From: Sulfuricaulis sp.
GTDB taxonomy: Bacteria > Pseudomonadota > Gammaproteobacteria > Acidiferrobacterales > Sulfurifustaceae
Assembly (NCBI RefSeq): GCF_024653915.1
Contig: NZ_JANLGY010000026.1
Span: forward strand, 1-64,000
Length of the DNA stretch: 64,000 nucleotides
Direction of reading: 5' to 3'
A program made the position numbers and the translations under genes. The stretch's first letter is position 1. Every line of letters starts with the position of its first letter. Under the pieces are notes generated by a model. That model worked only from the letters and a program-made list of their open reading frames with translations, ran no database searches and had not been told where the DNA came from. This document shows positions 3,104-51,639 of this stretch, in pieces.

Positions 3104-4291
3104 TCACATAAGAGAAAGCAGGTCGTCTGCCATGGTCCGCATCAGCCTGGTTCGGGAGTACTTTTCCATAAATTCTGTTCGCGGCATATCAACTAACAAA
3201 AGCTGTGAAAATACTTTTTGAGCCTCAACAGCATCGCAGGGAGCAAACACCACGGCGTTACTGATTTCAGACTTTACAAAGTCCGCGGCATAGCCAGATA
3301 CACCAGCCCAGACAGGCTTCCCCATTGCTGCATATTCGAACAATTTGGATGGCAGCACATTTTTAAAAGCGTCATAGTCGCTCAGGTGCAGAAAGAGAAC
3401 ATCCGCCTCTTGATAAGCCTGTATCAACTGATCGCGCTTCACTGGAGGTAAAATCTCCACGTTATCAACGTCGGCCTCTTGCAGGGCGGTTTGCAAGACT
3501 GCCTTACGGCCACCGTCACCAATTAACCTGAAAACAACGCGTCCCCGCATACTCTTGGCCAGAGCAGGCACTATGTTATGCAATCCCTGACCTTCCCCCA
3601 TGTTGCCGGCATAAAGCACAGTTAACGGCATATGCGCAGAATTTGCCCCCTTCACGCAAGTACCTGCTTCAATGAATTCTTCATCAACGCCGTTGGTGAA
3701 GAAAGAACATTGAAGATATGGATAGTGGGCCTCAAAGTAAGGCCTGAACCCCCTTGATACTAAATTGACCTTGTCAGCTTGGTTGATGGTCCAGCGCTCC
3801 ACCAGAGAAAGAAGGGGGGTAGTCGGCAGGCTCAACCAACGGGGCAACACATCATTAATGGTGTCGACAAAAATATCACGAATATCCAGATACAATTTTG
3901 CCTTCTGCTGCCTTGCAATCCAGGCTCCTAGCGTGGCGGTCATAAGCCGTGATGATGTCGCATAGACCAAGTCGTACTGACGAGACTGAACATGCCGCAT
4001 CACTCCTTTGGCGAAATGAATAAATGCCCTGGATTGATCGGCCATACCGCTTTTGTGGTTCGGCAACCTGATTCTACGAATAGCCAGACCGGGATGCGTT
4101 TCGATCTCAGGAGCCTCGCAACTGAAAGTACTATAGCGATTAGGCAGCGTGCTCACTACATCCACATGCGCCCCTTCTGGCAGCTTCTCGGTCAAGGCTT
4201 TTATTAACGCCGTTGTGCGAAAGGAACCCGCCGACAAATCGGGATGGTAGTAAAAACTCAGCACCAAAACTCTCAAATATCGCTCCCCCAT
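3104..4291 (-). CDS. GT4 glycosyltransferase, WbuB-like
   Basis: A 395-residue retaining glycosyltransferase of the GT-B fold. Features: an N-terminal acceptor-side strand (LRVLVLSFYYHPDLSAG, 6-22), TNGVD at 199-203, LYAGNMGEGQG (226-236) and the donor-site motif PSKLFEYAAMGKPV at 314-327. The ATG at 4291 is chosen because the longer frame would run about 100 bases into the upstream gene; this start overlaps it by 19 bases. It resembles WbuB/WcaI-type O-antigen transferases. Donor sugar not determinable. Confidence 0.85.
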   Translation of the reverse strand: MGERYLRVLVLSFYYHPDLSAGSFRTTALIKALTEKLPEGAHVDVVSTLPNRYSTFSCEAPEIETHPGLAIRRIRLPNHKSGMADQSRAFIHFAKGVMRHVQSRQYDLVYATSSRLMTATLGAWIARQQKAKLYLDIRDIFVDTINDVLPRWLSLPTTPLLSLVERWTINQADKVNLVSRGFRPYFEAHYPYLQCSFFTNGVDEEFIEAGTCVKGANSAHMPLTVLYAGNMGEGQGLHNIVPALAKSMRGRVVFRLIGDGGRKAVLQTALQEADVDNVEILPPVKRDQLIQAYQEADVLFLHLSDYDAFKNVLPSKLFEYAAMGKPVWAGVSGYAADFVKSEISNAVVFAPCDAVEAQKVFSQLLLVDMPRTEFMEKYSRTRLMRTMADDLLSLM

Positions 4292-5958
4292 TCGATCCGG
4301 GTAGTCAGATTGTGCCCGCTTAACTTTGCAACGATGCAAATATTGGGCACTGAGGTACCAAACTTTGGATGCCATGTAGACTCCACGAGCTCAATACCAT
4401 CAGCCCCCTGCACGCCAAATCTGATAGTTTTCTCTGAATCCGATATAAGCAAGAGTTGACAATCGGACAAATGCCGTCTATCGATGCCGATATCTGGATG
4501 CAGATAAAAACGCACTACGGCGCTCTGGAAGTTCCCTGTAATCGAATCATGCATCACCAGTGAGCGCCGGGTAAAAGTCCAGCTGCGTCGGTGGATAGCC
4601 TTGCCTTGTAGGCGCTTGTAGCCATCATGACTTGCCACGACAACAGCGGATTCGTCGTCTTCAGTAATGTATGGCTTGCTGGGGAATGCCCGGCGCGCCA
4701 CGCGAAACCCGCCCCACACCTCGCTGGAGGGCTCGCCGTCAACCACCACCGTGTTATGCGCTGCGGTGCTTCGCTGGCGCTGCCTTTCAACACCCTCGCC
4801 ATACTGCGACGTGCCAGAGTTGACGAACACGCGCCGGCCAAATAGGCTCAGCTCAAAACTGAGTGTATCTGCATGCCCATGTGCAGGGAGATAATCAGGT
4901 CCAATACGCGCCATGTCCAACAGGGCCACATCACCATCAGACATTTCTACCCGGCAATAGCCACTGTTTCCCAGCCATTGAAATGAAACCTTTCGATCAC
5001 CGCGAAGGCTCCTCAGCGACACCGGCTCCGCTTTACAGCCCAAGCTCGCGGCATAGGCTTTGATAGCTTCGGGGTCTGGAGCGATGTCAAATGCGGAATC
5101 ATTAAAGAAAGCAATGCGTCCATCCGGATGGGACATCGCTGCTAACCAGGTCAGACCCCGGTTAATCACCTCACGCCAACCAGACACCCGCTTTCTCAAC
5201 ACGCTTAACCCTGAGCGCTCGGCGAGGCTTAAAAGATCACACATATCGCCGAGCAGAATCGCGTGGTACATAGGAGAAAGCTCAAAGTGCCCGCCATCTG
5301 GAAGAAACTGTTCTGGGATCTCACGATCTAGAATTTGGAGACCCTTCTGCAGCCATTTCTGCGCTTCATCCCCGTCCAGAAAAGCACCAGCGAATACCAG
5401 CGCTTTGGCGTTTGCAAACAGATGATTTCCCAGAATATGAAACTCAAGCTGTTGATAGAGAGCTTGTGTTTGCAGCCCTAAACTTTTCTGCCAAGTGGGC
5501 TCAATAACATTCTGGCGTGAAAACCACTTCACCAGATTCACTATCCGTAACGAAAGCGGGTAAGGTTCCCAGCCGTGACCCATCACTGGCGGATTCTCCG
5601 CGATCCAGCGATTAATCAGATCCTTGTGCTCTTCGCGCCTTAACCCGGCGCCGACAGCATTCAGGTCATCCAGGTAGTGAAGGTTATAGAGCCAAAGCTT
5701 GCTCTTATGGGGGTCGTTCCATGCATCCTTATCCTTGAGATAGCCTTGCTCTCCAAGAAATTCGAAGCTACCGCGTGCAAGCATCCTCGAAGGCAACAGT
5801 CCTGGACTCGACCATGTACGCAGCCATGGTCTCTGCCCATACTCCCGCCTTTCGGTGAGATAAACCTTTGCAAACCTGTAATACAGACGGTAAATTAACT
5901 GCTCTATCTTCAGATGGCGTACTGTGTGAAACAGTCGGAGCATCTTGCGCAACGACAT
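4273..5958 (-). CDS. Heparinase II/III-family protein
   Basis: A 561-residue protein with an alpha-toroid N-terminal half and a beta-rich C-terminal heparinase II/III domain. Family motifs: EPYPLSLRI (131-139), NHLFANAKAL (178-187), DGGHFELSPMYH (221-232), PAHGHADTLSFEL (358-370), NSGTSQY (380-386) and AAHNTV (399-404). Lyases of this family cleave uronic-acid polysaccharides by beta-elimination. Copies in O-antigen/EPS loci are common but rarely characterised; it may trim or release the locus product. No clear Sec signal peptide is visible, so a cytoplasmic role is possible. Overlaps the next glycosyltransferase gene. Confidence 0.85.
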   Translation of the reverse strand: MSLRKMLRLFHTVRHLKIEQLIYRLYYRFAKVYLTERREYGQRPWLRTWSSPGLLPSRMLARGSFEFLGEQGYLKDKDAWNDPHKSKLWLYNLHYLDDLNAVGAGLRREEHKDLINRWIAENPPVMGHGWEPYPLSLRIVNLVKWFSRQNVIEPTWQKSLGLQTQALYQQLEFHILGNHLFANAKALVFAGAFLDGDEAQKWLQKGLQILDREIPEQFLPDGGHFELSPMYHAILLGDMCDLLSLAERSGLSVLRKRVSGWREVINRGLTWLAAMSHPDGRIAFFNDSAFDIAPDPEAIKAYAASLGCKAEPVSLRSLRGDRKVSFQWLGNSGYCRVEMSDGDVALLDMARIGPDYLPAHGHADTLSFELSLFGRRVFVNSGTSQYGEGVERQRQRSTAAHNTVVVDGEPSSEVWGGFRVARRAFPSKPYITEDDESAVVVASHDGYKRLQGKAIHRRSWTFTRRSLVMHDSITGNFQSAVVRFYLHPDIGIDRRHLSDCQLLLISDSEKTIRFGVQGADGIELVESTWHPKFGTSVPNICIVAKLSGHNLTTRIEWGSDI

Positions 5959-5966
5959 GCGATGCC

Positions 5967-8114
5967 CTAAATATCTCGCTGACTACGAAGCAGTCTCGCC
6001 GCCTCGATAGAAACTCTCGAAACCTCAAATACCTCATCAATGGGAATGGGTGTTTTGCCCCCCTCCGCTACCGCTGCCAGGAAACGACGGACACATTCGG
6101 TCTGTCCTTTGTCCTGCTTCCACAGGTTCATTTTCTTGAAGCCGGGCCAGCCATAGCCTTGCAATCTACGAAAGTTATCCAGTTGCAGCACCCGACCCGC
6201 TGTAAAGGCTTCGATGCGCTCCTTCGGAAAACTCGCCGCACCGTTGGCAAGGTAGTGAATGGTACCGAAAGAGCCATCCGCGAACCCCAATGTGATTGCC
6301 GCTTTGTCCTCAGTAATGGCGACACCAGGCGCATCGCCCATACGACGCGGTTGAATTGATACGATCTCGCTCCCGGCCAGAAAACGCATCAGGTCAATGA
6401 AGTGGCAAGCTTCACCGATAATGCGGCCACCCCCCACTTCGATGTCTTGGGTCCAGTGATCGGCTGGAATCATGCCCGCATTCATGGTCATGATGAACAA
6501 CTTGGGCTCGCTGACCGGCGTCAGAAGCGCCTTCATCTTCTGTACTTGCGGCGAGAAACGACGATTGAACCCCACCATCAAGTGCGGCCTGGCGCCCGCC
6601 GCATGCGACGCCTTGTAGGCTTTTTCTACTTCGGCAAGTTCATCATGATTGATGGCCAGCGGTTTCTCGACAAAGACGCTCTTGCCCGCCTGTAGCGCCT
6701 GCATCACGAAACGCGCATGGCTGTTGTGGCGCGTGACGATGGCGACGGTATTGATCTTATCGTTGGCTAACAGCGATTCAACATCGGTAGAAGCTTCGGC
6801 AAAACCAGCCTTTTTGCCATGAATCACGCCATTGATACCACCGGCGGTCACGATCGTATGAAGCTGCGCACCTGCCGCCTTGAAGGCCGGAATCAGGATG
6901 CGGGAGGCATAGTTACCCGCGCCGATAAATCCGACCACAGGCTTGCGGGCATCGAAGGTCGCATCCAGCTTCAGCGCTACGCGCTTCATGGCGCGTTGAC
7001 TGACATCCGAGGTGTATTGCAGCAGAATCCCCAGCGCGGATTTATCCTGGGTCAGCGCCTGATACGCATTCGGGACACTCTCAAACGCAAAACGCTGCGT
7101 GATCAGTGGCTTCACGTCCAGTTGGCCACTGGCCATCATGTCCAGCACAGCTTCAAAATTGCGCTGCTCGGTCCAACGCACAAACCCATAAGGGTAATCC
7201 TGCCCCTCCTCTTCATAATTCGCGTCATAGCGCCCCGGCCCGTAAGAGCAAGATACCTGAAAGGACAACTCCTTTTCATAAAAGTCCGCCCGGCTTAACT
7301 CCAACCCAGTAACACCAACCAGGATAATGCGGCCGCGTTGGCGACACATTTGGGCCGCCTGAGAGACAGGATCGCTGGACTTTGTAGAGGTGGCGATAAT
7401 CACACCATCCACGCCTTCCCCATGACTGAATGCCATGCCGGCGGCTACCGGATCTTCCCCCTTGGAGGGGTTACAAATAGCAGCACCGAATTTTCGCGCC
7501 AAAGCCAACTTGTGGTCATCGAGATCAATCGCCAGTACCCGGCAACCCTGAGCACGGAGTAGTTGCACAGTCAGCAGTCCGATAAGTCCCACCCCGGTCA
7601 CGACAAATGCCTCACCTAAAGTTGGTTGAGCCAGACGAATTCCCTGCAGGCCAATGCTTGCCATCACGGTAAAGACAGCAGACTCATCATCGACATTGTC
7701 AGGAATTTTTGCGCAAAGGTTCTTGGGGATTCTCACCACGTCTGCATGAGGGCCATTGGAAACAACCCGATCACCGGGCTTAAAACCCTCGACACCACGC
7801 CCGACTTCCGCCACTACCCCTACATTGCAGTACCCCAATGGTAACGGCTGCGCCAGCTTGGAACGCACCGCATCCATCGTGGTCATCAAACCGTCGGTTT
7901 TCACTTTCTCCAGCACCATCCGGACCTTCTCAGGCTGCTGTCGAGCCTTGTCGACAAATGAGGCTTTGCCAAATTCCACCAGCATGCGTTCTGTGCCGGC
8001 GGAAATCAGGCTGGTAGTGGTAAATATAAGTATATTGCCGGTGCTTACTTGGGGCGCCGGAGCCTCAACCACCCTTGTGTTGCCATTTGTAAGGTCTTGC
8101 AAGATTTGTTTCAT
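5967..8114 (-). CDS. Bi-domain oxidoreductase (MDR-type dehydrogenase + Gfo/Idh/MocA)
   Basis: A 715-residue fusion. Residues 1-370 are a medium-chain dehydrogenase-like domain with nucleotide motif VTGVGLIG (172-179). Residues 390-715 are a Gfo/Idh/MocA domain with GFIGAGNYA (395-403) and a downstream EKPLAIN active-site motif. The ATG at 8114 is chosen because upstream residues in the frame look random and overlap wecB. Such fusions repeatedly sit next to heparinase-like genes in O-antigen loci, as here. A role in oxidising or reducing a nucleotide sugar or glycan sugar is likely; substrate unknown. Confidence 0.85.
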   Translation of the reverse strand: MKQILQDLTNGNTRVVEAPAPQVSTGNILIFTTTSLISAGTERMLVEFGKASFVDKARQQPEKVRMVLEKVKTDGLMTTMDAVRSKLAQPLPLGYCNVGVVAEVGRGVEGFKPGDRVVSNGPHADVVRIPKNLCAKIPDNVDDESAVFTVMASIGLQGIRLAQPTLGEAFVVTGVGLIGLLTVQLLRAQGCRVLAIDLDDHKLALARKFGAAICNPSKGEDPVAAGMAFSHGEGVDGVIIATSTKSSDPVSQAAQMCRQRGRIILVGVTGLELSRADFYEKELSFQVSCSYGPGRYDANYEEEGQDYPYGFVRWTEQRNFEAVLDMMASGQLDVKPLITQRFAFESVPNAYQALTQDKSALGILLQYTSDVSQRAMKRVALKLDATFDARKPVVGFIGAGNYASRILIPAFKAAGAQLHTIVTAGGINGVIHGKKAGFAEASTDVESLLANDKINTVAIVTRHNSHARFVMQALQAGKSVFVEKPLAINHDELAEVEKAYKASHAAGARPHLMVGFNRRFSPQVQKMKALLTPVSEPKLFIMTMNAGMIPADHWTQDIEVGGGRIIGEACHFIDLMRFLAGSEIVSIQPRRMGDAPGVAITEDKAAITLGFADGSFGTIHYLANGAASFPKERIEAFTAGRVLQLDNFRRLQGYGWPGFKKMNLWKQDKGQTECVRRFLAAVAEGGKTPIPIDEVFEVSRVSIEAARLLRSQRDI

Positions 8115-8139
8115 CGATTCTGCTTTTCCATTCGTTGAT

Positions 8140-9243
8140 TTACACCAGCAATCGTTCCAGCTCGGCCACGATACGTTCGGCGGCATGGCCGTCCCACTTA
8201 TCCGGGATGCTGCCCTGCTTCCAGCGGCCATGCAGTAAACGCGCCATCGCGGGTGCGAGATTATCAGGATTGGTGCCAATCAGTTCATTAGTGCCGATTG
8301 TCACGGTCTCCGGACGCTCGGTATTATCGCGCAAGGTCAGACAGGGGACACCGAGCACGGTGGTTTCTTCGGTGATACCGCCAGAGTCGGTGATCACTCC
8401 ACGGGCGTGCTGCACCAGATAATTGAATTCGCGATAGCCCTGCGGATCTACGCAATGCAGACAAGGTATCTCCACATCGAGCTCACGCAAGTTCTTCGCC
8501 GTGCGTGGGTGCACAGGAAACACTACCGGCAGACCCCCCGCTCCCTTGGCAATGGCATGCAGCAGTCGCAGCAACTGCTGCTCACCATCTACGTTAGCGG
8601 GTCGGTGCAGGGTAACGACAAAATACTGTCCCGGCTGCAAGCCCAGTTCACTCCAGAACACTGGTGGCCGCAGGTCGGGTATCTGCTTGAGTAACGTATC
8701 GATCATGGTATTACCAACAAAGAAGATACGGTCGTCCATCACCCCAGACTGGCGCAGGTTTTCATTGGCCGTCTCACTGGTGGTGAAAAACCAGTTGGTA
8801 ATGGAATCGGTCACAACCCGATTTATCTCCTCGGGCATGGTCCAGTCGCCAGAGCGAATGCCACCCTCCACATGCGCCACCGGCACACCAAGTTTGCGCG
8901 CTACAATGGCGCAGGCCATGGTCGAGGTCACATCTCCCACCACCAGGCAGAGAGCGCTCTTCTGCTGCAGCAGAACTTTCTCATAGCGCATCATGATGTT
9001 GGCCGTCTGCTCAGCCTGCGTGCCGGAACCCACTTCCAGATTAATGTTTGGCACTGGAATGCCGAGTTGCTCGAAGAAGCCGCGGGACATAGCGCGGTCG
9101 TAATGCTGGCCAGTGTGTATCAGTCGATAGCGGAGCGAACTGCCATGCGTCATGGCGGCTTTCAGCGCATCGATGATCGGTGCGATCTTCATGAAGTTGG
9201 GGCGCGCGCCAGCGATGAGGTCCACTAATCGCATTTGGTTCAC
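8140..9243 (-). CDS. wecB: UDP-N-acetylglucosamine 2-epimerase (non-hydrolysing)
   Basis: A 367-residue WecB-family enzyme interconverting UDP-GlcNAc and UDP-ManNAc, or a 6-deoxy relative in FnlC/WbjD-type proteins. Family signatures: GARPNFMK near the N-terminus, HTGQHYD, VEGGIRSGDWTMPEEINR, VTLHRPANVD and the UDP-binding TDSGGITEE. The GTG at 9243 overlaps the stop of the upstream oxidoreductase gene; an ATG three codons later (9234) matches the usual N-terminus and may be the true start. UDP-ManNAc could feed the TviB/WbpO-type dehydrogenase at the head of the locus, but that pairing is inference. Confidence 0.9.
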   Translation of the reverse strand: MNQMRLVDLIAGARPNFMKIAPIIDALKAAMTHGSSLRYRLIHTGQHYDRAMSRGFFEQLGIPVPNINLEVGSGTQAEQTANIMMRYEKVLLQQKSALCLVVGDVTSTMACAIVARKLGVPVAHVEGGIRSGDWTMPEEINRVVTDSITNWFFTTSETANENLRQSGVMDDRIFFVGNTMIDTLLKQIPDLRPPVFWSELGLQPGQYFVVTLHRPANVDGEQQLLRLLHAIAKGAGGLPVVFPVHPRTAKNLRELDVEIPCLHCVDPQGYREFNYLVQHARGVITDSGGITEETTVLGVPCLTLRDNTERPETVTIGTNELIGTNPDNLAPAMARLLHGRWKQGSIPDKWDGHAAERIVAELERLLV

Positions 9244-11796: not shown

Positions 11797-12459
11797 TTAC
11801 AGAACTACAGTTATAATTTTAACCCCATCCGGCGAGCCTAGCAGCAATACGTCCGCTGGCCGCATGGCAAACAATCCGTTGGTAACTACGCCAACAATCT
11901 GGTTGATACTGGTTTCCATCTCCACCGGGTTGGGGATACTCAGGTTATGCACATCCAGGATAAGGTTACCATTGTCTGTGGTAAAACCAGCTCTCAGCAC
12001 GGGTTGCCCGCCCAGTTTAACCAGCTCACGTGCCACATAACTGCGCGCAGAGGGAATTACTTCGACCGGCAGAGGGAACCTGCCTAATACGTCCACCAAC
12101 TTGCTGGAATCAGCGATGCAGACAAATTTCTTGCTGCAAGCTGCAACAATTTTTTCACGAGTTAATGCCCCTCCTCCACCCTTGAGCATATACAGGTGAT
12201 CGGTAATTTCGTCAGCGCCATCTACATAGACATCTAATTCACCCACGTTGTTCAAATCCAGCACCTGAATGCCGTAGTTTCGCAAACGTTGCGCGGTTGC
12301 TTCGGAGCTAGCAACAGCGCCATCGATCTTGTGCTTGATTGCGGCCAATTCATCAATAAAACAGTTCGCTGTAGAACCGGTGCCCACTCCAATAATTCCG
12401 GAAGACACATATTCTATGGCCGCCCGTGCTACAGCCTGCTTCAAGTCGTCTTGCCCCAT
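11797..12459 (-). CDS. rpiA: Ribose-5-phosphate isomerase A
   Basis: A 220-residue RpiA, full length, interconverting ribose-5-phosphate and ribulose-5-phosphate. Diagnostic motifs: VGTGST (25-30), DGADE (80-84) and [11 protein letters not shown] (93-103). Its position is the point of interest. It lies directly after a transaldolase gene at the end of the GDP-heptose gene run, where both enzymes could raise sedoheptulose-7-phosphate, the precursor of that pathway. Whether the genome has a second rpiA cannot be seen here. Confidence 0.93.
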
Positions 12460-12516: not shown

Positions 12517-13233
12517 TTAGAGTTTGAATCCCGCCGCAGCGGCGTCGTTGTAAAACATCTTCACCGTATCCAGAGAAAACTCATCATGATTGAGTCCGAC
12601 CAATGAAAGCTTCTTGAGGATATCATTGGTCACGGTAATGACGTGACAGCCAATCTCGTCAGCTTGAAAAATATTCAGTAATTCACGTGGGCTTGCCCAG
12701 ATCAGCTCCGCCGCAGGCGCAACTTTCAGTAGTTCGACAGCAGTCGTCATCATTGGAATTGGATCGTGTCCCGTATCCGCGATACGTCCGGCGAATACGG
12801 AAACATAGCTCGGAACATTGGGGTCAAGGGCCGCTACCACACCACGCACCTGGTCAAGCGTCATCAACGCCGTAACATTTAGCTTGACCTTTTGCGCCGC
12901 AAGCTTGCGGACCAATGCGTAGCAAGTTTCTCTCCTAGTATTGGTGACAGGAATTTTGACATAAACATTTTCACCCCATCCCGTAATCTCCAGTGCCTGC
13001 CGTTCCATATCGGTAAAGTCGTCCGAGAATACCTCAAACGAGATTGGGCGGTCAGGTATAGCAGCAAGAATATCCTTGGCGAATGCCTTGTAATCTGTAA
13101 TTCCCGCCTTGCGCATCAATGTCGGGTTCGTGGTCAAGCCTTTGATGTAAGGCTTGGCATACATCTCCTGCATCCCCGCCTTGTCTGCGCCATCCGCAAA
13201 AATCTTTACTTTCAGTTCTTCAATTTTCTTCAT
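12517..13233 (-). CDS. tal: Transaldolase (TalC/FSA-like short form)
   Basis: A 238-residue class I aldolase of the short transaldolase/fructose-6-phosphate aldolase group. TTNPTL (34-39) is the family's phosphate-side motif, Lys93 in YVKIPVT is the expected Schiff-base lysine, and NVTALMTLDQ (119-128) follows. Transaldolase makes sedoheptulose-7-phosphate from fructose-6-phosphate and erythrose-4-phosphate. The start overlaps the gmhB stop by four bases, so it is translated with the heptose genes. A fructose-6-phosphate aldolase-like or novel aldol reaction cannot be excluded. Confidence 0.85.
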   Translation of the reverse strand: MKKIEELKVKIFADGADKAGMQEMYAKPYIKGLTTNPTLMRKAGITDYKAFAKDILAAIPDRPISFEVFSDDFTDMERQALEITGWGENVYVKIPVTNTRRETCYALVRKLAAQKVKLNVTALMTLDQVRGVVAALDPNVPSYVSVFAGRIADTGHDPIPMMTTAVELLKVAPAAELIWASPRELLNIFQADEIGCHVITVTNDILKKLSLVGLNHDEFSLDTVKMFYNDAAAAGFKL

Positions 13234-13766
13234 GTTTGATCCTCCATCAAAATGGTCATAACAGCTTCCTGCGTAGATAAAACTCGGTAGTCACACGTCT
13301 GTGAATGTTTCTCGTCATAACCATAATCTATAAAAATCGTCTTGCAGCCAGCGGCGATACCCGCCTCCACATCTCGCCAGCGGTCGCCCACCATGAAACT
13401 CGAAGCCAGATCGACCCCGAATTCCCTTGCCCCAGCGAGCAACATGCCGTGGCGGGGTTTACGGCAGTCGCAACCATCGCTACTGTCGTGGTAACACATA
13501 AGGAAACGATCAACCGGGAGATGCTCCGCCAGAAAAGTATTAATCGCCTCAACTGTTTCCTGTCGGGTCGTACCTCTCGCTACATCGGGCTGATTGGATA
13601 CGACGATCAAGACAAAACCTGCCTCTTTCAAACGATGCAGGGCTTCAACTACGCCGGGCAGAATTTCGACTTCAGCAACGCTAGCAGGCGGATAAGGTTT
13701 ACCCTCCCGTACCACAGCCCGATTGAGCACCCCATCCCGGTCCAGGAATACTGCCCGGCGTTTCAT
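13230..13766 (-). CDS. gmhB: D-glycero-D-manno-heptose 1,7-bisphosphate 7-phosphatase
   Basis: A 178-residue HAD phosphatase of the histidinol-phosphatase/GmhB type. Motif I is FLDRDGVLN with Asp9 and Asp11; a zinc-binding loop CYHDSSDGCDCRKP and motif IV MVGDRWRDVEAG follow. It removes the 7-phosphate from heptose-1,7-bisphosphate in the GDP-heptose route. The ATG at 13766 is preferred, since the longer frame would run 70 bases into gmhA. It sits 14 bases after gmhA and overlaps the transaldolase start. Confidence 0.9.
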   Translation of the reverse strand: MKRRAVFLDRDGVLNRAVVREGKPYPPASVAEVEILPGVVEALHRLKEAGFVLIVVSNQPDVARGTTRQETVEAINTFLAEHLPVDRFLMCYHDSSDGCDCRKPRHGMLLAGAREFGVDLASSFMVGDRWRDVEAGIAAGCKTIFIDYGYDEKHSQTCDYRVLSTQEAVMTILMEDQT

Positions 13767-13780
13767 CGTGCCCACCGTCC

Positions 13781-14380
13781 TTACTTGACGGCCGATTCCC
13801 ACTTGGTTTGGTTGGCCTTCAGTTTTGGATGTGAGACCAACAAATGCCACACAACCGCCTGAAATGCCTCGGAATGCGGTGTGATGGTTTCTGGATTAAC
13901 TGTCGGCACGATTACACACACATCCGCCACCTGTGCTGTGTAGCCGCCATCCCGCCCGACCACGCCCGTTACCTTGGCACCAACCGTCTTGGCATACTGC
14001 AACGCCATCACCAGATTCGGACTGATGTTTTTTTCAAGGTTGCCACCACCAACGGACAAAACAAATACCGCATCCCTGGCGGAGAGCTTGCTCGTCTTCA
14101 GCCACTCAACAAAGATCGTCGCCCAACCTTCATCGTTGGTGCGCGCCGTCAGCTCCGAAACATTGTCTGTCGGTGCATAGGACTCGATTCCGACGATCTT
14201 GCGGAAATCATTCACCGCATGAGAGCAGTTGCCCGCGCTGCCCCCCACGCCGAGGAAGAAAATCCGCCCCCCTTCCTGCTTGATGTTGGCGAGCAAGTCT
14301 GCCATTTGCTCGATAGCGTTGACATCCATCCTCTGGAGAATATCAATCGCTTCACTGATATGGTGCTGTGCGTAACTCAT
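13781..14380 (-). CDS. gmhA: Sedoheptulose-7-phosphate isomerase-like SIS protein
   Basis: A 199-residue single SIS-domain protein of the GmhA family, which converts sedoheptulose-7-phosphate into D-glycero-D-manno-heptose-7-phosphate. Sugar-phosphate-binding segments GVGGSAGN (44-51) and LSVGGGN (108-114) are present. So are an acidic residue in VSELTARTND and a C-terminal HSEAFQAVVWHLL with the expected histidine. It is coupled by overlap to hddC and sits among gmhB and hddA, which supports a GDP-heptose rather than core ADP-heptose role. Confidence 0.88.
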   Translation of the reverse strand: MSYAQHHISEAIDILQRMDVNAIEQMADLLANIKQEGGRIFFLGVGGSAGNCSHAVNDFRKIVGIESYAPTDNVSELTARTNDEGWATIFVEWLKTSKLSARDAVFVLSVGGGNLEKNISPNLVMALQYAKTVGAKVTGVVGRDGGYTAQVADVCVIVPTVNPETITPHSEAFQAVVWHLLVSHPKLKANQTKWESAVK

Positions 14381-15084
14381 GCCTTTTCTTCCTTGCTGAA
14401 ATACTCAATGGTTTCGTCCAGCCCCTTATGGGAGCCGATTTCATAAAATCGTTCGAACACCTCGTGACCTGCCAACACACCGCGAATCGAAAGCTCGTGG
14501 TAGATATCCGCCAGATCAAAAGGCTCATTGGCGAGTGCATTCTCCAGAACCGAAGCAGACATCACCCCAAGCCCGTAGTCGATGTGCGTCATTTCAGGTC
14601 GCGGTGCCCGCTTATTGTATTCGGCGATGCGGCCATCGCGAAACAGCACATTGCTCTTGTCCCACTGGTTACCATTCTTCAGGACCGTCATCAGTGCCGG
14701 CTTGCCACTGGCGAGGAAGTCGCGCTCCACTGCCCGAAAATCAATAGGCAGATAAGAATCACCGTAAAAAATAAAAAACTGCTCTCCCAATAGCGGCAAG
14801 GCCTGCCTCAAGGCGCCGCCCGTACCCAGCAAGCGCGGGCCGTCCCATGAATAGCGCACATCCAAACCAAAAGCCGAACCATCACCCACAACCGCCTCCA
14901 CTTGCGCACCCAAATAACCCAAGCACAGCACCACACGGGAAATCCCTTGTTGCCGCAAGTAATCCAGCTGGCGAACCACAAAAGGCTGACCCGCAACATC
15001 CACCAATGCCTTTGGTATTTTTTCGGTGATCGGGCGCAAGCGGGTTGCCAAGCCACCCGCTAGAACGGCAACCGGCAAGCTCAC
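14377..15084 (-). CDS. hddC: D-glycero-D-manno-heptose 1-phosphate guanylyltransferase-like nucleotidyltransferase
   Basis: A 235-residue nucleotidyltransferase with signature LAGGLATRLRP (8-18) and Lys25 (IPKALV). The metal-site segment FIFYGDSYLPID follows. In this gene setting it should be HddC, transferring GMP from GTP to heptose-1-phosphate to give GDP-D-glycero-alpha-D-manno-heptose. Four-base overlaps on both sides tie it to hddA and gmhA. Specificity for GTP over CTP or dTTP is inferred from context. Confidence 0.87.
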   Translation of the reverse strand: MSLPVAVLAGGLATRLRPITEKIPKALVDVAGQPFVVRQLDYLRQQGISRVVLCLGYLGAQVEAVVGDGSAFGLDVRYSWDGPRLLGTGGALRQALPLLGEQFFIFYGDSYLPIDFRAVERDFLASGKPALMTVLKNGNQWDKSNVLFRDGRIAEYNKRAPRPEMTHIDYGLGVMSASVLENALANEPFDLADIYHELSIRGVLAGHEVFERFYEIGSHKGLDETIEYFSKEEKA

Positions 15085-16061
15085 GAAAGAACCACCTTGG
15101 TTCCCTCAAAATCGAACCCAAAACGCACTTCCTCCAGCCCCGCTTTGCTCATGGCATGACGCAATTTGTTACGGTCGGCCGCGTAGAACATCAGGAAACC
15201 GCCGCCACCTGCCCCCACCAGCTTGCCACCGACTGCGCCATTCTTCATGCCAAGCTGGTACCACTCGTCAATCCTGGGGTTGCTCATGCCTCCCGAACGC
15301 CGCTTTTTATGCTCCCAGTGCTCGTGCATTAACTCACCAAACTTTACGGCATCGTTCGCTTCCAGTGCCTCTTTACTGCGATAGCCAAGCTCCTTGACGA
15401 AATGAAGATTCTTGAGCATTTCGTTGTCGCTATTTTGTGTGCGATCTTTCTGATCCTTGAGAATACTACTGGCACTGCGGGAGTAGCCTGTGAAAAACAG
15501 AAGGATATTGTCTTCCAGATCAAAAATGGTATCCATTGAAACCTTGAGGGGTACGGCGGTAACGGTATCGTCCTTGTGAAAGGTGAAACACGTCAAGCCA
15601 CCATAAGCCGCAATATATTGATCCTGTTTGCCGATTGGCTCACCCAAGCGGTCAATTTCAATATGGCAAGCCAGCTCAGCCAATTCTTGTGGATGAATCA
15701 ACTGGCGGCGATGTGCATACAAAGCCTCAAGCAATGCAGTAGTAAAACTTCCAGACGAACCCAGTCCCGTTCCGGCAGGAATGTCGGCCAACGTAGTGAT
15801 TTCAATTTGTGGTGTACGTAGATTCTGCATTCTTAGTGCTTCACGAATAATCCGGTGCCGTACTTCATCCACCGAGACCACATGCTCCAATTCAGAATAC
15901 TTGAGAAAAACACCTTCGGTAAACGGGCGCATCACCGTCACATAGACATACTTATTAATTGCTGCAGCAACCAGGAAACCTTCGTGGTCACGGTAATATG
16001 AGGGGAGATCAGTCCCGCCACCGCCCAATGTGATGCGCAATGGACTACGGGCAATGATCAT
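15081..16061 (-). CDS. hddA: D-glycero-D-manno-heptose 7-phosphate kinase
   Basis: A 326-residue GHMP kinase. Motif 1 GGGGTDLPSYY (13-23), the ATP loop PAGTGLGSSGSF (95-106) and the C-terminal VGAGGGGFLMFY are all clear and match HddA proteins. It phosphorylates D-glycero-D-manno-heptose-7-phosphate at C1. The ATG at 16061 gives the canonical start MIIARSPLRITLGG; a codon nine residues upstream is less likely. It overlaps the end of the upstream Gfo/Idh gene by 17 bases. Confidence 0.92.
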   Translation of the reverse strand: MIIARSPLRITLGGGGTDLPSYYRDHEGFLVAAAINKYVYVTVMRPFTEGVFLKYSELEHVVSVDEVRHRIIREALRMQNLRTPQIEITTLADIPAGTGLGSSGSFTTALLEALYAHRRQLIHPQELAELACHIEIDRLGEPIGKQDQYIAAYGGLTCFTFHKDDTVTAVPLKVSMDTIFDLEDNILLFFTGYSRSASSILKDQKDRTQNSDNEMLKNLHFVKELGYRSKEALEANDAVKFGELMHEHWEHKKRRSGGMSNPRIDEWYQLGMKNGAVGGKLVGAGGGGFLMFYAADRNKLRHAMSKAGLEEVRFGFDFEGTKVVLS

Positions 16062-17040
16062 AACCAGACTCCTTGTAAATCTTTTCAACCACCTTCAACG
16101 CCTCAAAGGCATCATTCAAGCCCGCGGCTGGCTGCCGGTTCAGACGAATATCGTCGTAGAACTCTGCCATTTCGACTGACCATGAGTCATCTCCCATGGG
16201 GTATTCCCAAGCTGTCGTCTCAGGTGGCCCCATTTCAGGCAACATTTTGTAATACGTAAGCCGCTCGACCCCATAACTTCCTCCGAGGCCACTGATTTCC
16301 AGCTTGGCATTTCGTCCGTAAATTTCCATGGAGAACATGTTTTTCCACTCCGTACAACTAGCATGGAGAAATGCCACCTGCTGCTTCGCAGTTTTCAACA
16401 GCAAAAAGCCATTGTCATCTACGGGCATATCCCAATAATAGGTGTGGGCAAAACCCTGAACCTCAGTAAACTCACCCAGAAACCAGCGTGATAGATCAAT
16501 CAGGTGTGGCCCTTGGTCAATCAGCTCCCCACCCCCGGAAAGATCAGGTTTACTCCGCCACTCCTTATCGTAGCCAATCCGTCCACCGTGCCCATAGCGA
16601 GCACGGATGAACATCAATTCGCCCAATGCTCCAGCCTCGAACAACTCTCGAGCCTTGCGAAAGGCGCGGTGGTAGCGGTGATTAAAGCCCACATGCACCT
16701 TCACATCATGCCGTGCAGCCACCGCAGCCATCACTGGCTCCAGTTCGGTGGGGTTGCGCGCCGCGGGCTTTTCCACCAGCACATGCTTCCCCGCTTCAAT
16801 TGCCGCCAGCGTAATTTCTGCTAGCGAATCATGCAGGGTAGCGATAACAACGATATCGACTACCGGAAGCGTTAAAAGCCCGCGCCAATCACCGAACACC
16901 TTAGCCCCGCTGTTTCCCGCCAGTGCTTTTGCCCTGGCCTCATCGATATCCGCGCAGGCGACCAACCGCCCTTCACCCAAGGCCTTGGCCCGTTTTTGTC
17001 CGATCAGGCCACAACCAATAATTCCGACTCCGAAACTCAC
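16045..17040 (-). CDS. Gfo/Idh/MocA-family oxidoreductase of the heptose module
   Basis: A 331-residue NAD(P)-dependent oxidoreductase with IIGCGLIGQKR (7-17) and the catalytic EKP at 90-92 (VLVEKPAA). It lies between an SDR gene and hddA with overlapping ends, so it is almost certainly made together with the GDP-heptose enzymes. A role in oxidising or reducing a modified heptose or another nucleotide sugar of this module is inference; the sequence does not reveal the substrate. Confidence 0.82.
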   Translation of the reverse strand: MSFGVGIIGCGLIGQKRAKALGEGRLVACADIDEARAKALAGNSGAKVFGDWRGLLTLPVVDIVVIATLHDSLAEITLAAIEAGKHVLVEKPAARNPTELEPVMAAVAARHDVKVHVGFNHRYHRAFRKARELFEAGALGELMFIRARYGHGGRIGYDKEWRSKPDLSGGGELIDQGPHLIDLSRWFLGEFTEVQGFAHTYYWDMPVDDNGFLLLKTAKQQVAFLHASCTEWKNMFSMEIYGRNAKLEISGLGGSYGVERLTYYKMLPEMGPPETTAWEYPMGDDSWSVEMAEFYDDIRLNRQPAAGLNDAFEALKVVEKIYKESGYDHCP

Positions 17041-17915
17041 TTATCCCCCCACGAAAAACCTCGATCCCGACCGGCCATACGCCTCAGCGTATAGGCATCA
17101 CTCGAATTCAGCTCATCAAGATGTTCCGGCCAATGTTCCCAGTTATCCCACACAGCACTAATCAGTTTTCCGGTAATGCCGTCGCTGGCAGCGGATGCCA
17201 GGAATAAGGCAAGATCAGCCCCCCGATCCAAGCCCGCACCGCCCGATTCCCTCTGCTTGATCGACCTGTCGAAAAACGCTTGGCCAACTTTTCCAGGCCC
17301 GGCGGCGAGCACCTCGTCAAGCATGCGCGTATTCAATGCGCCAGGAGCAATCGCATTTACATCGATGTTTAACTCGCGCACTTCTTCTGCAAGCGTTTCT
17401 GCAAAACGCACGATGGCGGCCTTGGAAACGGCATATGCGCTGATGTTTGGCATCGGGTTGGTAGCCCCGCCACCAGAAAGCTGAATGATCTTGCCTCTTT
17501 GCTGTTTCTTCATAATGGGCAACACTGCTCTGCACATCAAGATCGAGCCAAACAAATTGATCTCGATTGTCTTAACCCACTGCGCCCAATCGATCGCTTC
17601 GATTGGCCCCATCGGGCCGTAGATACCCGCGTTGTTGACCAAAATGTCGATTCGACTAAACCGCTGTAAAGTCGTCTCCACCAATTGCTCAACGCTCCTT
17701 GGGTCCGAGACATCCGCTGGTAGCGCCTCAATGACCTGCCCTGCCGCTAATTCGTGTGCGAGATCTTCCCGTACTTTTAGCAACAGATCACCATTCCGTG
17801 CACACATAACAACCGATGCACCGGCATTGACGAATTTACGGGAAATCTCCAGACCAAGGCCTTGGTTGGCACCAGTAATAATTGCAACCTTTCCATTCAG
17901 TGTGAATAACATCAC
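17037..17915 (-). CDS. Short-chain dehydrogenase/reductase
   Basis: A 292-residue classical SDR: cofactor motif TGANQGLG (14-21), NNAG (94-97), catalytic Ser147 with Tyr161 and Lys165 (YAVSK). It overlaps the UGD-like gene upstream and the Gfo/Idh gene downstream by four bases each. The extra C-terminal stretch (residues about 230-292, with SSDAYTLRR) is longer than in minimal SDRs. It may reduce a keto-sugar made by its neighbours; not testable from sequence. Confidence 0.82.
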   Translation of the reverse strand: MMLFTLNGKVAIITGANQGLGLEISRKFVNAGASVVMCARNGDLLLKVREDLAHELAAGQVIEALPADVSDPRSVEQLVETTLQRFSRIDILVNNAGIYGPMGPIEAIDWAQWVKTIEINLFGSILMCRAVLPIMKKQQRGKIIQLSGGGATNPMPNISAYAVSKAAIVRFAETLAEEVRELNIDVNAIAPGALNTRMLDEVLAAGPGKVGQAFFDRSIKQRESGGAGLDRGADLALFLASAASDGITGKLISAVWDNWEHWPEHLDELNSSDAYTLRRMAGRDRGFSWGDK

Positions 17916-19219
17916 GCTAACCTTTCAATTGAAGGGGCTCCAACAGCGACATAACGAAGCGCCGCCACTGTTCCCAAAGATGACAGGAAACGATTCGGGT
18001 CGAGCACCACCAGTCCGGGGGACACTCTGACGACATAATCCTTGGGGATTTCCCTATATTCAGGCCACTCGGCTCCCACCAATAGAACTTGAGCCCCCTC
18101 CAACGCCCCTAACGCCTCGTCGAAACGCTGCACACAGCCATTCCAGTTTGTCGGGAGCTCTTTCACTACAGGATCATGCACCCTCACTCGGGCGCCTTGC
18201 TCAAGTAGCCAGTTACACAATTCAACTGCCAATGATCGGCGCAGGGTATCGGTGCCAGGCTTGTACGTCAGCCCCCAGACAACAACGACTACGCCATCCA
18301 GACTTGGCATGAGTGCTTTCAGCTTACGACGCACCCAAGACTTGTGACCATCGTTGCTCGTCTTCACTGATTCGAGCAAGGGAATGGAAATCTGATGCCT
18401 TTGGCTAACTACTTTTAAAAATTCAATATCGCGAGCCAATGTTCCCCCAGCGAAAGCTCCCCCAGGCGAAAGATAAGCCTTAGGGCCAATCCGATTCTCG
18501 GATTTAAGTCCGCGCTCCACCTCTTTGGCGTCTGCACCGACCATTTCACAGATTGAAGCAATTTCGTTGGCGAAGACGACCGAGGTTGCCAAAAAAGCAT
18601 TGATCGCGTGCTTGGTCATTTCCGCCGATTCCACCGACATCCATTCGATTCGACCGGTAATCGGTTGTAGCAATCGTCCAATTCGCTCCTTATCTCGTTC
18701 AGAACGCACTCCGACGACGACACGGTCAGGCTTTAAAAACACATCCAGCGCTTTGCCCAGTCGCAGGTTTTCTGGTGAGTAAGCAAAGCTCAATGCCTTT
18801 CCAGGACAGAGTTTGTCTGCAATTGCCTCCATCCGTCGAATCGAGCCTACCGGCATCTGCGAAGACACCAGCACAACCGAATTGGTCGGCAGGTATGGCA
18901 GCACGGCCGCTACCTGGGCAACAACAAAATTGACATCAGCCACATCATCTTCATCGACGGGCGTGTCATAGGCGACCCAGAGTAGTTCGATGTCGCTTGG
19001 CAGTTCTTCAAGGCTTGCAGTAAATCGCAGATGCCCTGAATCCAGGCTTGTCCGAATCATGTCCTCCAAGCCTGGCTCGAAAATGGGAGGCTTGCCTGCC
19101 CGAAGCCCTCGAATTACATCTTCATCGAGATCAAAACCAACGACCGTATGTCCAACTGAAGCAAGGCATCCCGCAGTGACTGACCCAAGGTGCCAAAGCC
19201 CCTGAACACAAACGTTCAT
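17912..19219 (-). CDS. UDP-glucose/GDP-mannose dehydrogenase-family protein lacking the catalytic cysteine
   Basis: A 435-residue member of the nucleotide-sugar dehydrogenase family with all three domains. The N-terminal Rossmann motif is GLWHLGSVTAG (7-17), the middle helix has SAEMTKHAINAFLA (198-211), and the C-terminal domain has GLTYKPGTDTLRRS. The active-site loop is GGAFAGGTLARD (253-264). Where the family has GGSCFPKD with the nucleophilic Cys, this protein has Thr260, and the Lys is Arg. It therefore probably cannot carry out the usual four-electron oxidation to a uronic acid. The ATG overlaps the previous stop (TGATG). See findings. Confidence 0.85.
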   Translation of the reverse strand: MNVCVQGLWHLGSVTAGCLASVGHTVVGFDLDEDVIRGLRAGKPPIFEPGLEDMIRTSLDSGHLRFTASLEELPSDIELLWVAYDTPVDEDDVADVNFVVAQVAAVLPYLPTNSVVLVSSQMPVGSIRRMEAIADKLCPGKALSFAYSPENLRLGKALDVFLKPDRVVVGVRSERDKERIGRLLQPITGRIEWMSVESAEMTKHAINAFLATSVVFANEIASICEMVGADAKEVERGLKSENRIGPKAYLSPGGAFAGGTLARDIEFLKVVSQRHQISIPLLESVKTSNDGHKSWVRRKLKALMPSLDGVVVVVWGLTYKPGTDTLRRSLAVELCNWLLEQGARVRVHDPVVKELPTNWNGCVQRFDEALGALEGAQVLLVGAEWPEYREIPKDYVVRVSPGLVVLDPNRFLSSLGTVAALRYVAVGAPSIERLA

Positions 19220-20178
19220 CAACGAGCCCCCATGACCCACTCATTAGCTTTCAGGAACTCCACAGTTTTAACAACACCTTCACGAATGGAGTGCTTCGGC
19301 TCCCAACCCAATGACCTGATTCCCCTGGTGTCCAAGAATATGAACGGGTTGTCTCCAATCCAGCCACGATCTCCACCTGTGTATTTCATCTGAGGCTTGG
19401 CGCCAAGCGCTTGACTAATCCAGCCGATGGAATCGTTAACCTCGCAATAGCCATCCACCCCCAAGTTGAAGATATTGACTTTGCCATTCGCCTTCTCAAC
19501 GGCAACTTGCATCGCATCGAGGCAATCCTGGATGTAGAGATACGATTTACGCTGCTTGCCGTTGCCCAGAACCCGCAACTGTGTAGGGTCTGCTTTCAAT
19601 TGTTTGTAGAAATCGTATACATGCCCATGCGTATAGCGTTCTCCGAGAATGGAAACAAAACGGAAAATCCATGACTGGAAACCGAAACCTTCACAATACG
19701 CCGCAATCAGCCCCTCACCCGCAAGCTTTGAAGCGCCATAAAGAGAGGTTTGAACCGGGAACGGCGCATCCTCCGGCGTGGGGATCATCGCTGCCTCGCC
19801 ATAGACAGACCCGGTGGAAGAAAACCCAATCCGCTTGATGCCATTGGACCGCATCGCCTCCAGCACATTGAAAGTGGCGATCGTGTTCTGCTCCAAGTCC
19901 TTGCGCGGATGCTCCGTACCGAAACGGACATCCGCATTAGCGGCAAAGTGGAACACCGTATCGCCTCCGGCGAACGCTTTGGTCAAGGACGGAAGATCAA
20001 GTAGGTCACCTTCAATCAGGCAGAAAGACGTGCTCTTCAAAGCCCCTTCGAGAAATCGGCGTTGGCCCGTAGAGAAGTTGTCAATCCCGGTGACACGATG
20101 CCCTTGGGCGAGAAGCCGGTCGACGAGGCTGCTGCCGATGAAGCCGGCGCAGCCGGTAATAATGAAATGCCTAACCAT
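19219..20178 (-). CDS. NAD-dependent nucleotide-sugar epimerase/dehydratase
   Basis: A 319-residue extended SDR with GCAGFIG (9-15), SSTGSVYGE (120-128) and Tyr147/Lys151 (LYGASK), the GalE-like arrangement. It is the first gene of the coupled heptose run. A second ATG at 20178 has an AAGG sequence eight bases upstream and is preferred over the ATG at 20184, which is too close. Likely activity is a 4-epimerase or dehydratase on a nucleotide sugar, possibly GDP-heptose given its neighbours; that last step is inference. Confidence 0.8.
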   Translation of the reverse strand: MVRHFIITGCAGFIGSSLVDRLLAQGHRVTGIDNFSTGQRRFLEGALKSTSFCLIEGDLLDLPSLTKAFAGGDTVFHFAANADVRFGTEHPRKDLEQNTIATFNVLEAMRSNGIKRIGFSSTGSVYGEAAMIPTPEDAPFPVQTSLYGASKLAGEGLIAAYCEGFGFQSWIFRFVSILGERYTHGHVYDFYKQLKADPTQLRVLGNGKQRKSYLYIQDCLDAMQVAVEKANGKVNIFNLGVDGYCEVNDSIGWISQALGAKPQMKYTGGDRGWIGDNPFIFLDTRGIRSLGWEPKHSIREGVVKTVEFLKANEWVMGAR

Positions 20179-20277
20179 GAACATAACCTTTTTTTAAAAT
20201 CCAATGCTTTGAAAGCAAGTAACCAACCACCATATAGACGGGGACAATGAGGGAGATATCAACCATGTCGAACTCTC

Positions 20278-48334: not shown

Positions 48335-49632
48335 AGCCTCCAGACATGCATGCCGGCATCGGTGAATACTTTGGCATCGAAGCGTGCCTTGACATCAATA
48401 AAACAACCGCCACGCTCAAGCTTCTTGAGATACACATCCGTTCCCATGCCGAGAAACGACTTATGCGCCACGGCAGCCACAATCGCCTTGGCCTTGGGCA
48501 AGGATTCCCATGAGATCAACTCAATCCCGTACTCGTGCCGCGCTTCCTCGGCGTTGGCAACCGGATCGTGCACGGAGACTTTCACGCCATATGACAGCAG
48601 TTCATTGACGACATCGATCACGCGTGTGTTCCGGGAGTCCGGGCAATCCTCCTTGAAGGTGATTCCCATGACAATGACATGACTACCGTTGACAGAATGT
48701 CCCGCCTGGATGATCTGCTTGATAGTTTGCTCGGCAATATATTTTCCCATGCTGTCATTGATTCGGCGCCCGGCCAGAATCACTTCCGGATGGTAACCCA
48801 TGCGTTCAGCTTTTTGCGTCAGGTAATAGGGGTCAACGCCGATACAATGGCCACCGACCAGTCCGGGCCGAAAGGGCAGAAAGTTCCATTTCGTGCCTGC
48901 GGCTTCCAGCACCTCGAGAGTGTCTATCCCCAGTTTATGAAAAATAATGGCGAGTTCGTTCATCAGGGCAATATTCAGGTCACGCTGGGTGTTTTCAATT
49001 ACCTTGGCCGCCTCGGCTGCCTTGATGCTGGAAGTACGGCATACACCCGCCGTAATGATGAGCTCATACAGTTGTGCGACCGTTTCCAGCGTGGAAGCAT
49101 TATCGCCTGAAACGACTTTTTTAATGGTCGTCAGCGTATGCACCTTGTCTCCCGGGTTGATGCGCTCGGGCGAATAACCGACATGGAAATCCTGCATCCA
49201 GCGCATGCCGGAACCCTTCTCAAGCACCGGAATGCATTCCTCTTCCGTAGCTCCCGGATATACAGTAGATTCGAAAATAACAATGGCGCCTCTCTTCATA
49301 TGCGGCGCAATCAATTCACAAGCGGAGTGCAAGGGGCTGAAGTCGGGCTGGTGCGCGTCATCCACGGGGGTGGGCACAGCCACGATAATAAAATCCGCCG
49401 GCGCCATGTCAGCTGGATTGCTCGAATATCCTAGCTTGCCGGCGGCACGCAGGTCTTCCTCTCCCACGCCGCCGGTCGGATCCTGGCAACGGCGATAACT
49501 GGCAAGTTTTGCCTCGTTAAGATCATATCCGATCGTTGTCATTCGCTTTCCAAACTCAACCGCAAGCGGCAAACCCACGTAACCCAGTCCCACGACAGCA
49601 ACCGTTTTATTTTCCAGCTCAGTTTTTTTCAT
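48331..49632 (-). CDS. tviB: UDP-N-acetylhexosamine dehydrogenase (TviB/WbpO type)
   Basis: A 433-residue nucleotide-sugar dehydrogenase with cofactor motif VGLGYVGLP (14-22), AKVIENTQRDLNIALMNE with Lys210/Asn214, and the catalytic Cys263 in GGHCIGVDPYY (260-270). The GHCIGVDPYYL form is that of TviB/WbpO, which oxidise UDP-GalNAc or UDP-GlcNAc to the uronic acid. This intact Cys contrasts with the other family member at 17912-19219. It heads the locus and is coupled to the rfaH-like gene. Confidence 0.9.
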   Translation of the reverse strand: MKKTELENKTVAVVGLGYVGLPLAVEFGKRMTTIGYDLNEAKLASYRRCQDPTGGVGEEDLRAAGKLGYSSNPADMAPADFIIVAVPTPVDDAHQPDFSPLHSACELIAPHMKRGAIVIFESTVYPGATEEECIPVLEKGSGMRWMQDFHVGYSPERINPGDKVHTLTTIKKVVSGDNASTLETVAQLYELIITAGVCRTSSIKAAEAAKVIENTQRDLNIALMNELAIIFHKLGIDTLEVLEAAGTKWNFLPFRPGLVGGHCIGVDPYYLTQKAERMGYHPEVILAGRRINDSMGKYIAEQTIKQIIQAGHSVNGSHVIVMGITFKEDCPDSRNTRVIDVVNELLSYGVKVSVHDPVANAEEARHEYGIELISWESLPKAKAIVAAVAHKSFLGMGTDVYLKKLERGGCFIDVKARFDAKVFTDAGMHVWRL

Positions 49633-50680: not shown

Positions 50681-51639
50681 CCCTCCTGCAAAGACAGTTC
50701 GTGCAAAATTTCCGCGGGGCTCGCCGTCGCCGCACCGAGCTTACCGACGACGATGCCCGCGGCGATGTTGGCCAGCTGCAGGGCGTCTTCCAGCCCGCTG
50801 CCAACGGCCCAAGCGCAGCCGATCGCCGCGATCACCGTATCGCCGGCGCCTGTCACGTCAAACACTTCCTGGGCGCGCGCCGGGATATGCAGGGCCCGTC
50901 CACCCTTTTGCACCAGACTCATGCCTTTCTCGCCGCGTGTCACCAGAATACCACCCAGGTCCAGATCCTGGATCAGCTTTACGGCCCGCCGCTCAAGATC
51001 AGCGTCGTCGCGGAAACGGCCGGCCACCTGTTCGAATTCCTTGCGGTTCGGGGTGATCAGGTTCGCACCGCGGTAACCACTGTAATCGTCGCCCTTGGGA
51101 TCGATCACCACCGGACGGGAGACAGCACGCGCCGCCTGGATCATTTCCTGGATGTTGCTCAATCCGCCCTTGCCATAATCCGAAACGATGACGGCATCGT
51201 ATTCAGGAAGATGCTTGAGGTAGTTGTCGAGAAGTTTGACGCGTGCGTCCTTGCTGACCGGGCTGTCAAAATCGATCCGCAACATTTGCTGGTGCAGATG
51301 TTTGGAAACGACGCGCAACTTGACGGTCGTATTCACCAACTTGTCCCGCTCCAGGCGACAGTGGATGTCGTCCTTGTCCAGCAGCTGCTCGAGGCTGTCC
51401 GCTTCGCGGTCGTCACCGCTGATGGAAAACAGGGTGCACGCGGCACCCAGCTTGCGCACGTTCCGCGCCACGTTGGCGGCGCCGCCTGGAAGCTCTTTTG
51501 CTTCCTTCACTGCCACCACGGGCACCGGCGCCTCGGGCGAAATGCGCTCAACGTCGCCGTACCAGTAGCGGTCGAGCATGGCATCGCCCACAACCAATAC
51601 CTTGGCACGGGCAATTTTTTCAAGAAGCGGCGGCAGCAT
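50677..51639 (-). CDS. hldE: D-glycero-beta-D-manno-heptose-7-phosphate kinase (HldE domain I only)
   Basis: A 320-residue PfkB-family kinase: [39 protein letters not shown] and the anion-hole motif [12 protein letters not shown]. It corresponds to the kinase half of E. coli HldE; the C-terminal adenylyltransferase domain is absent, so that function must be a separate gene outside the window. The ATG at 51639 is chosen from the homologous N-terminus. Precedes hldD. Confidence 0.9.

Follow-up and report, generated by a model that had tools for sequence, protein, structure and literature searches.

What reaction is left to a nucleotide-sugar dehydrogenase once its catalytic cysteine is gone? 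The question is raised by a gene of the window (the whole stretch of 64,000 nucleotides analyzed here), whose product, P0001, carries threonine at the position of a cysteine that was reported to be invariant across 229 members of the family (Cys260; PMC4794789). P0001 belongs to a whole clade that lacks this residue and is found almost always in a single nine-gene operon of the putative nucleotide-heptose type. Our results point to a new one-step oxidation as the probable reaction of P0001, in place of uronic acid formation.

The gene and its neighborhood

The initial annotation placed the gene at 17912 to 19219, and these coordinates stand while the strand had to be corrected: the plus strand is interrupted by many stop codons throughout, and the minus strand, read from 19219 to 17912, codes for the 435 residues of P0001. 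Its ATG overlaps the stop codon of the upstream gene (TGATG). In minus-strand order, the nine operon genes and one further downstream gene are as follows.

19219..20184, minus strand, GalE-like NAD-dependent epimerase/dehydratase, 321 aa, first core gene, matched in 75 of 80 loci
17912..19219, minus strand, P0001, Cys-less nucleotide-sugar dehydrogenase homologue, 435 aa, with Thr260 and the motifs GLWHLG, SSQ, PENLRLG, and AGGTLARD
17037..17915, minus strand, classical SDR oxidoreductase, 292 aa, Tyr161/Lys165 conserved, overlapping the P0001 stop codon
16045..17040, minus strand, Gfo/Idh/MocA oxidoreductase, 331 aa, Glu90-Lys91-Pro92 conserved
15081..16088, minus strand, HddA-like kinase, between the Gfo/Idh and HddC/MurU-like genes
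14377..15084, minus strand, HddC/MurU-like sugar-1-phosphate nucleotidyltransferase, 235 aa
13781..14380, minus strand, GmhA-like SIS-domain isomerase, 199 aa, scoring far under the GmhA cut-off
13230..13850, minus strand, GmhB-like HAD phosphatase, 206 aa
12517..13233, minus strand, transaldolase, 238 aa, over the TIGR02134 cut-off
11797..12459, minus strand, RpiA ribose-5-phosphate isomerase, downstream of the transaldolase

P0001 is a full-length member of its family by fold. All three Pfam domains of the UGDH family score above their curated cut-offs (PF03721, NAD-binding; PF00984, central; PF03720, UDP-binding), and the model for "nucleotide sugar dehydrogenase," TIGR03026, is passed with 290 bits against a cut-off of 189.8. 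Against the UDP-glucose 6-dehydrogenase model of TuaD (NF047673), P0001 reaches 243.4 bits, below the curated 700. Its AlphaFold model (pLDDT 92) matches 3gg2 with Z 44.4 and 1.9 Å over 419 aligned residues.

Residues kept and residues lost

Alignment to 3gg2, 4a7p, and 2y0e sets Thr260 of the P0001 loop (PGGAFAGGTLARD) opposite the Cys of GGSCFPKD, as had been claimed from the single sequence, and threonine is found there in all 80 relatives from genome contigs (42 to 83% identity). The Cys motif is present in 40 of 40 control family loci of the same phylum. The clade thus lacks the catalytic Cys260 that characterizes the four-electron NDP-sugar dehydrogenases (UDPGDH, GDPMDH, and UDPNAMDH). 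Since the peptides used for the search excluded positions 260, 9-10, 121, and 151-154, conservation at these positions is no search artifact; Asp85 and His204 lay inside the search peptides.

Eighteen residues with assigned roles are invariant in the 229-member set (PMC4794789), and the clade retains 14 of them. The four that are lost are Gly9 of the NAD loop, Thr118, which places the active water, Gly257, which contacts the uridine ribose, and Cys260, and a further residue, Tyr10, present in 98% of the set, is the reported catalyst of thioester hydrolysis (PMC4794789). The residues of thioester formation, water placement, and hydrolysis, namely Cys260, Tyr10, Thr118, and Glu145, are replaced jointly by Thr, His, Gln, and Leu (these four, like Lys204, Asn208, Asp264, Thr83, Asp29, and Arg327 below, are given in S. 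pyogenes numbering). Gln121, standing for Thr118, and His10, standing for Tyr10, occur in 80 of 80 aligned members, and leucine replaces Glu145 in essentially all of them; the replacement residues are themselves invariant or nearly so in the clade.

The residues of the first oxidation (Lys204, Asn208, and Asp264), of NAD binding (Thr83, Asp29, and Arg327), and of diphosphate binding (Lys320) (PMC4794789) are kept. Lys203, Asn207, and Asp264 of P0001, which correspond to the first three, are found in 81 of 81 sequences, and the P0001 helix SAEMTKHAINAF retains the Lys and the Asn, as the initial annotation had stated. Its further statement that the cofactor motif is intact is true of Asp30, Thr86, and Arg327, which the clade keeps in all or nearly all members, and is not true of the GxGxxG loop itself. 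This loop reads GLWHLG in P0001, with Trp9 for the second Gly and His10 for the Tyr10 that follows, and the GxWxxG form occurs in 79 of 80 aligned members. With Trp9 in its dinucleotide loop, the protein could have difficulty in binding NAD in the ordinary way.

A second cysteine might have taken over the role of Cys260, and such a residue was looked for through conservation across the clade, with none found. The only near-universal cysteine of the clade, Cys224, occurs in Cys-type homologues as well, and none of Cys147, Cys335, and Cys4 is universal, a pattern that appears to rule out a stand-in.

The Cys-less clade and its spread

That a Cys-less clade might exist had been raised as a point to check, and the 80 Thr260 relatives are indeed monophyletic (SH-aLRT 99, on a stem of 1.5 changes per site) in a quick tree of the clade with 15 Cys-type family members, without GDP-mannose dehydrogenase. 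No intermediates between Cys-type and Cys-less proteins are seen in this tree; the nearest Cys-type relative found (L088, 38.5% identity) is fully canonical. Codon comparison gives a dN/dS of about 0.1 (0.09 to 0.13), and the clade is under purifying selection. With Thr260 shared by every relative, this rules out a chance mutation, a sequencing error, or a pseudogene.

By assignment, the clade loci cover 17 named phyla and range from Proteobacteria to MAGs that bear an archaeal label; many members derive from metagenome bins, which may be misnamed, and the archaeal members lie on short contigs. The distribution is rare and patchy: a search for an exact DNA signature of the gene gave a match in 1 of 398 genomes from the phylum and no match among 59 relatives (8 of the same genus), exact matching making both counts lower bounds. 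The entire operon lies on plasmid 3 of Lawsonia intracellularis (L087, NC_008014.1), where the gene is annotated simply as a nucleotide sugar dehydrogenase, and it is also found on a Rhizobium jaguaris plasmid. If our reading is true, every gene of the clade is misannotated in this way by automatic annotation. Near the operon of L. intracellularis, an intracellular pig-gut bacterium, two very large hypothetical proteins (about 1090 aa) are encoded. In the open-access literature, we found no description of the Cys-less clade or its operon.

Viral contigs, when scanned, yielded members that branch deeper (37 to 41% identity), which also lack the Cys and carry Thr or Ser instead, with Gln121, Asn151, and His204 kept, and His10 too where covered. 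One of them combines Ser260 with an ordinary GxG (L110), and another reads GGTLGRD. The signature of the wider clade is therefore Asp85, Ser119-Ser120-Gln121, Pro-Glu-Asn151, His204, and Thr/Ser260, with His10 wherever covered, Trp9 being common and not universal. The L110 gene (7004-7843) adjoins HddA, HddC, GmhA, and transaldolase genes and is a candidate early-branching member.

A conserved operon of putative heptose type

Adjacent reading frames of the operon overlap (TGATG, GTGATG), and at least eight of its nine genes are present in 44 loci. The 45 loci whose downstream flank reaches 7 kb or more contain the SDR in 44 cases, HddA in 43, Gfo/Idh in 42, the GalE-like gene in 41, HddC in 38, GmhA and the transaldolase in 37 each, and GmhB in 36. 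The SDR gene lies within 300 bp of the dehydrogenase in 62 of 65 loci. Among 40 control loci, which are Cys-type family members of the same phylum examined with flanks of up to 8 kb, left and right, HddA, HddC, GmhA, and the transaldolase are found in none and a GmhB-like gene in one. These counts bear out the coupling to the SDR and Gfo/Idh genes, which the initial annotation had put forward, and show a tight linkage to the GmhA/HddA/GmhB/HddC-like set as well.

For the operon genes, pairwise distances are correlated with one another (rho 0.53 to 0.86, with no permutation that high), as expected of genes that travel together, and the catalytic motifs of the partner proteins are conserved. No aminotransferase belongs to the conserved gene set. 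RpiA is attached to the operon only here and in L009 among the 80 loci, and a second RpiA lies on another contig of this genome (C5); the attached copy is possibly an extra precursor supply. In two loci, L106 and L108, the dehydrogenase is 58 to 60% identical to P0001 and the adjoining SDR and Gfo/Idh proteins are just 26 to 30% identical, which suggests that the later pathway steps may be swappable and that the final sugar may differ. Frames of 404 to 430 aa with an HddC-like domain, possibly GmhB-like phosphatase fusions, are found in two other loci (L086:7423-8715 and L039:11592-12806).

Sugar and nucleotide

We infer heptose as the sugar from the family resemblance of the HddA-, GmhA-, and HddC-like operon enzymes, all of which score below the curated cut-offs: 172.7 bits against 600 for HddA, 50.9 against 209.45 for GmhA, and 81.5 against 300 for the GDP-type HddC, the UDP-type MurU model scoring higher than the last, at 114.6. 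Since these scores lie under the cut-offs, both sugar and nucleotide could differ from the NDP-heptose that we propose. The GmhA-like isomerase (13781-14380) has an invariant Asp58 where the GmhA alignment has Glu, and its substrate may not be exactly sedoheptulose 7-phosphate.

The nucleotide evidence appears divided. Ala255 and Leu261 of the P0001 loop resemble GDP-mannose dehydrogenase (PGFAFGGSCLPKD), in which the guanosine contact Ala263 corresponds to Ala255, whereas the GDP-mannose-specific His217, which contacts the mannose, is Leu210 in P0001, as in UDP-glucose dehydrogenases. The loop thus seems GDP-mannose-dehydrogenase-like in two features, and the nucleotidyltransferase is at least as MurU-like as it is HddC-like.

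The proposed reaction and its alternatives

The pattern of residues kept and lost is, as far as the sequences can tell, the one expected if a single hydride were transferred, and we think it likely that P0001 is a two-electron NAD dehydrogenase. Such an oxidation had been suggested from the missing Cys, and the joint loss of Tyr10, Thr118, Glu145, and Cys260 favors it; we infer its stoichiometry, as we do the substrate, the C6 site, and the final sugar. P0001 would bind NAD and a nucleotide sugar, most likely an NDP-heptose and at best guess a GDP-linked one, supplied by the transaldolase and the GmhA-, HddA-, GmhB-, and HddC-like enzymes of the operon, and would use its Lys/Asn/Asp site to transfer one hydride only. 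A heptopyranose has a secondary alcohol, the exocyclic C6-OH, at the place of the primary C6-OH of a hexose, and oxidation of this secondary alcohol would yield a ketone and end after two electrons. Because a ketone cannot form a thioester, the Cys and Glu145 would become dispensable, as would the Thr that places the water and the Tyr that serves hydrolysis, and all four would be lost together while the hydride-transfer site stayed. His10, Gln121, and Thr260 may hold the extra C7 hydroxymethyl group in a putative C7 pocket, and the SDR, Gfo/Idh, and GalE-like proteins would then act on the keto-heptose, epimerizing and reducing it to a sugar of a surface polysaccharide.

The full proposal, a Cys-less subfamily that converts an NDP-heptose to a C6 ketone for later epimerization and reduction, has in our judgment slightly less than an even chance of being correct, and we are somewhat more tentative about the wider claim that this is an undescribed NDP-heptose pathway, moved as an operon across about 17 phyla, in which a Cys-less enzyme of UGDH fold makes the C6-keto heptose. 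If true, a known fold has been turned to the oxidation of a secondary alcohol at an exocyclic carbon, this clade amounts to a natural experiment in which the first oxidation is uncoupled from the second, and a new surface sugar is to be predicted from the operon in many bacteria. The pathway would also lead to heptoses altered at C6, a change to which no enzyme has been assigned in Campylobacter, and P0001 is a testable candidate for NDP-heptose C6 oxidation, the step left open there (PMC10680097).

The loss of the Cys and the hydrolysis residues also fits the release of an aldehyde, formed from a primary alcohol (heptose C7 or hexose C6) and used by the SDR, the Gfo/Idh protein, or a later step, and two more oxidoreductase genes follow P0001 directly. 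Free aldehydes are reactive, however, the operon has no obvious consumer for one, such as an aminotransferase, and the heptose position that matches hexose C6 is a secondary alcohol, so that we regard this as unlikely. Rather less probable is an epimerase-like cycle, in which C6 or a ring carbon is oxidized and then re-reduced on bound NAD, as in HldD. Trp9-His10 in the cofactor loop could grip NAD tightly, and GDP-heptose C6 epimerization in Campylobacter has no known enzyme (PMC10680097), but Trp9 is absent from L110, and the nearly constant linkage of the SDR and Gfo/Idh genes suggests that the reduction is left to other proteins.

Uronic acid formation through an aldehyde hydrate or an oxygen ester of Thr260 is a slightly poorer prospect again. 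The Cys276Ala variant of UGDH can oxidize aldehyde that is supplied to it, and with Cys276Ser a covalent adduct is trapped (PMC3184952), so that loss of the Cys alone would not exclude a four-electron reaction, and the Ser260 of L110 would also fit. Yet Cys276Ala fails to complete the reaction from UDP-glucose (PMC3184952), threonine is a poor nucleophile, and since Thr118, Tyr10, and Glu145 have gone as well, a four-electron reaction is improbable. A catalytically dead protein with a binding or structural role in an operon complex would explain the loss of four family invariants, including Gly9 of the NAD loop, but it is very improbable, since the hydride-transfer site and the NAD contacts Thr86, Arg327, and Asp30 are retained almost without exception, dN/dS is low, and the new residues are invariant.

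Comparison with known systems

UDP-glucose 6-dehydrogenases (BceC, 2y0e; Porphyromonas gingivalis, 3gg2; Sphingomonas, 4a7p; and human UGDH) share with P0001 the full-length fold (Z 40 to 44), the three Pfam domains, the Lys/Asn/Asp site, and the NAD-contact Asp/Thr/Arg, at about 30 to 34% identity for the bacterial enzymes. P0001 differs from them in the replacement of Cys260, Tyr10, Thr118, Glu145, and Gly9 as a set and in its heptose-type operon. GDP-mannose 6-dehydrogenase (AlgD, 1mfz/1mv8; about 24% identity) shares the loop Ala at the guanosine-ribose position and the Leu after the Cys position, whereas P0001 lacks the Cys and has Leu210 for His217. 6-Phosphogluconate and 3-hydroxyisobutyrate dehydrogenases, which perform two-electron oxidations without a Cys, have the same wider fold (Z about 18), but they have no match to the NDP-binding C-terminal domain of P0001 and act on different substrates.

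The operon and the GDP-heptose pathway of Campylobacter jejuni presumably have an HddA/HddC/GmhA/GmhB supply in common. HldD, the ADP-heptose 6-epimerase, is a short-chain-type epimerase, whereas in the P0001 operon oxidation and reduction appear to be divided between proteins. The oxidation and reduction of heptose C6 by HldD is known chemistry, as cited in PMC10680097. As is proposed for P0001, the C. jejuni pathway oxidizes an NDP-heptose to a keto sugar in an NAD-type reaction before epimerases and reductases act, but there C4 is oxidized, and Cj1427, which is a different enzyme, does so; this review of Campylobacter heptoses makes no mention of UDP-glucose dehydrogenase (PMC10680097).

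Two other candidates for comparison were set aside. The virenose O-antigen cluster of Coxiella was dropped as an instance of the same system, no UDP-glucose-dehydrogenase gene being named beside cbu0676-0678 in the part of its description available to us. Human UGDH with bound UDP-4-keto-xylose is no precedent for oxidation of a ring carbon, as this ligand, made in E. coli by ArnA, was carried along through the purification.

The rest of the genome and window

The same genome encodes a separate Cys-type paralogue, a second GmhA, a second transaldolase, and HldE, so that the operon would constitute a dedicated second pathway. Within the window, a UDP-ManNAc-dehydrogenase-like gene lies close to HldE (49084-49605 and 50698-51624). 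A 770-aa frame at 5967-8279 joins a zinc-type alcohol dehydrogenase to a Gfo/Idh domain and is followed by a heparinase II/III-like protein at 4273-5958.
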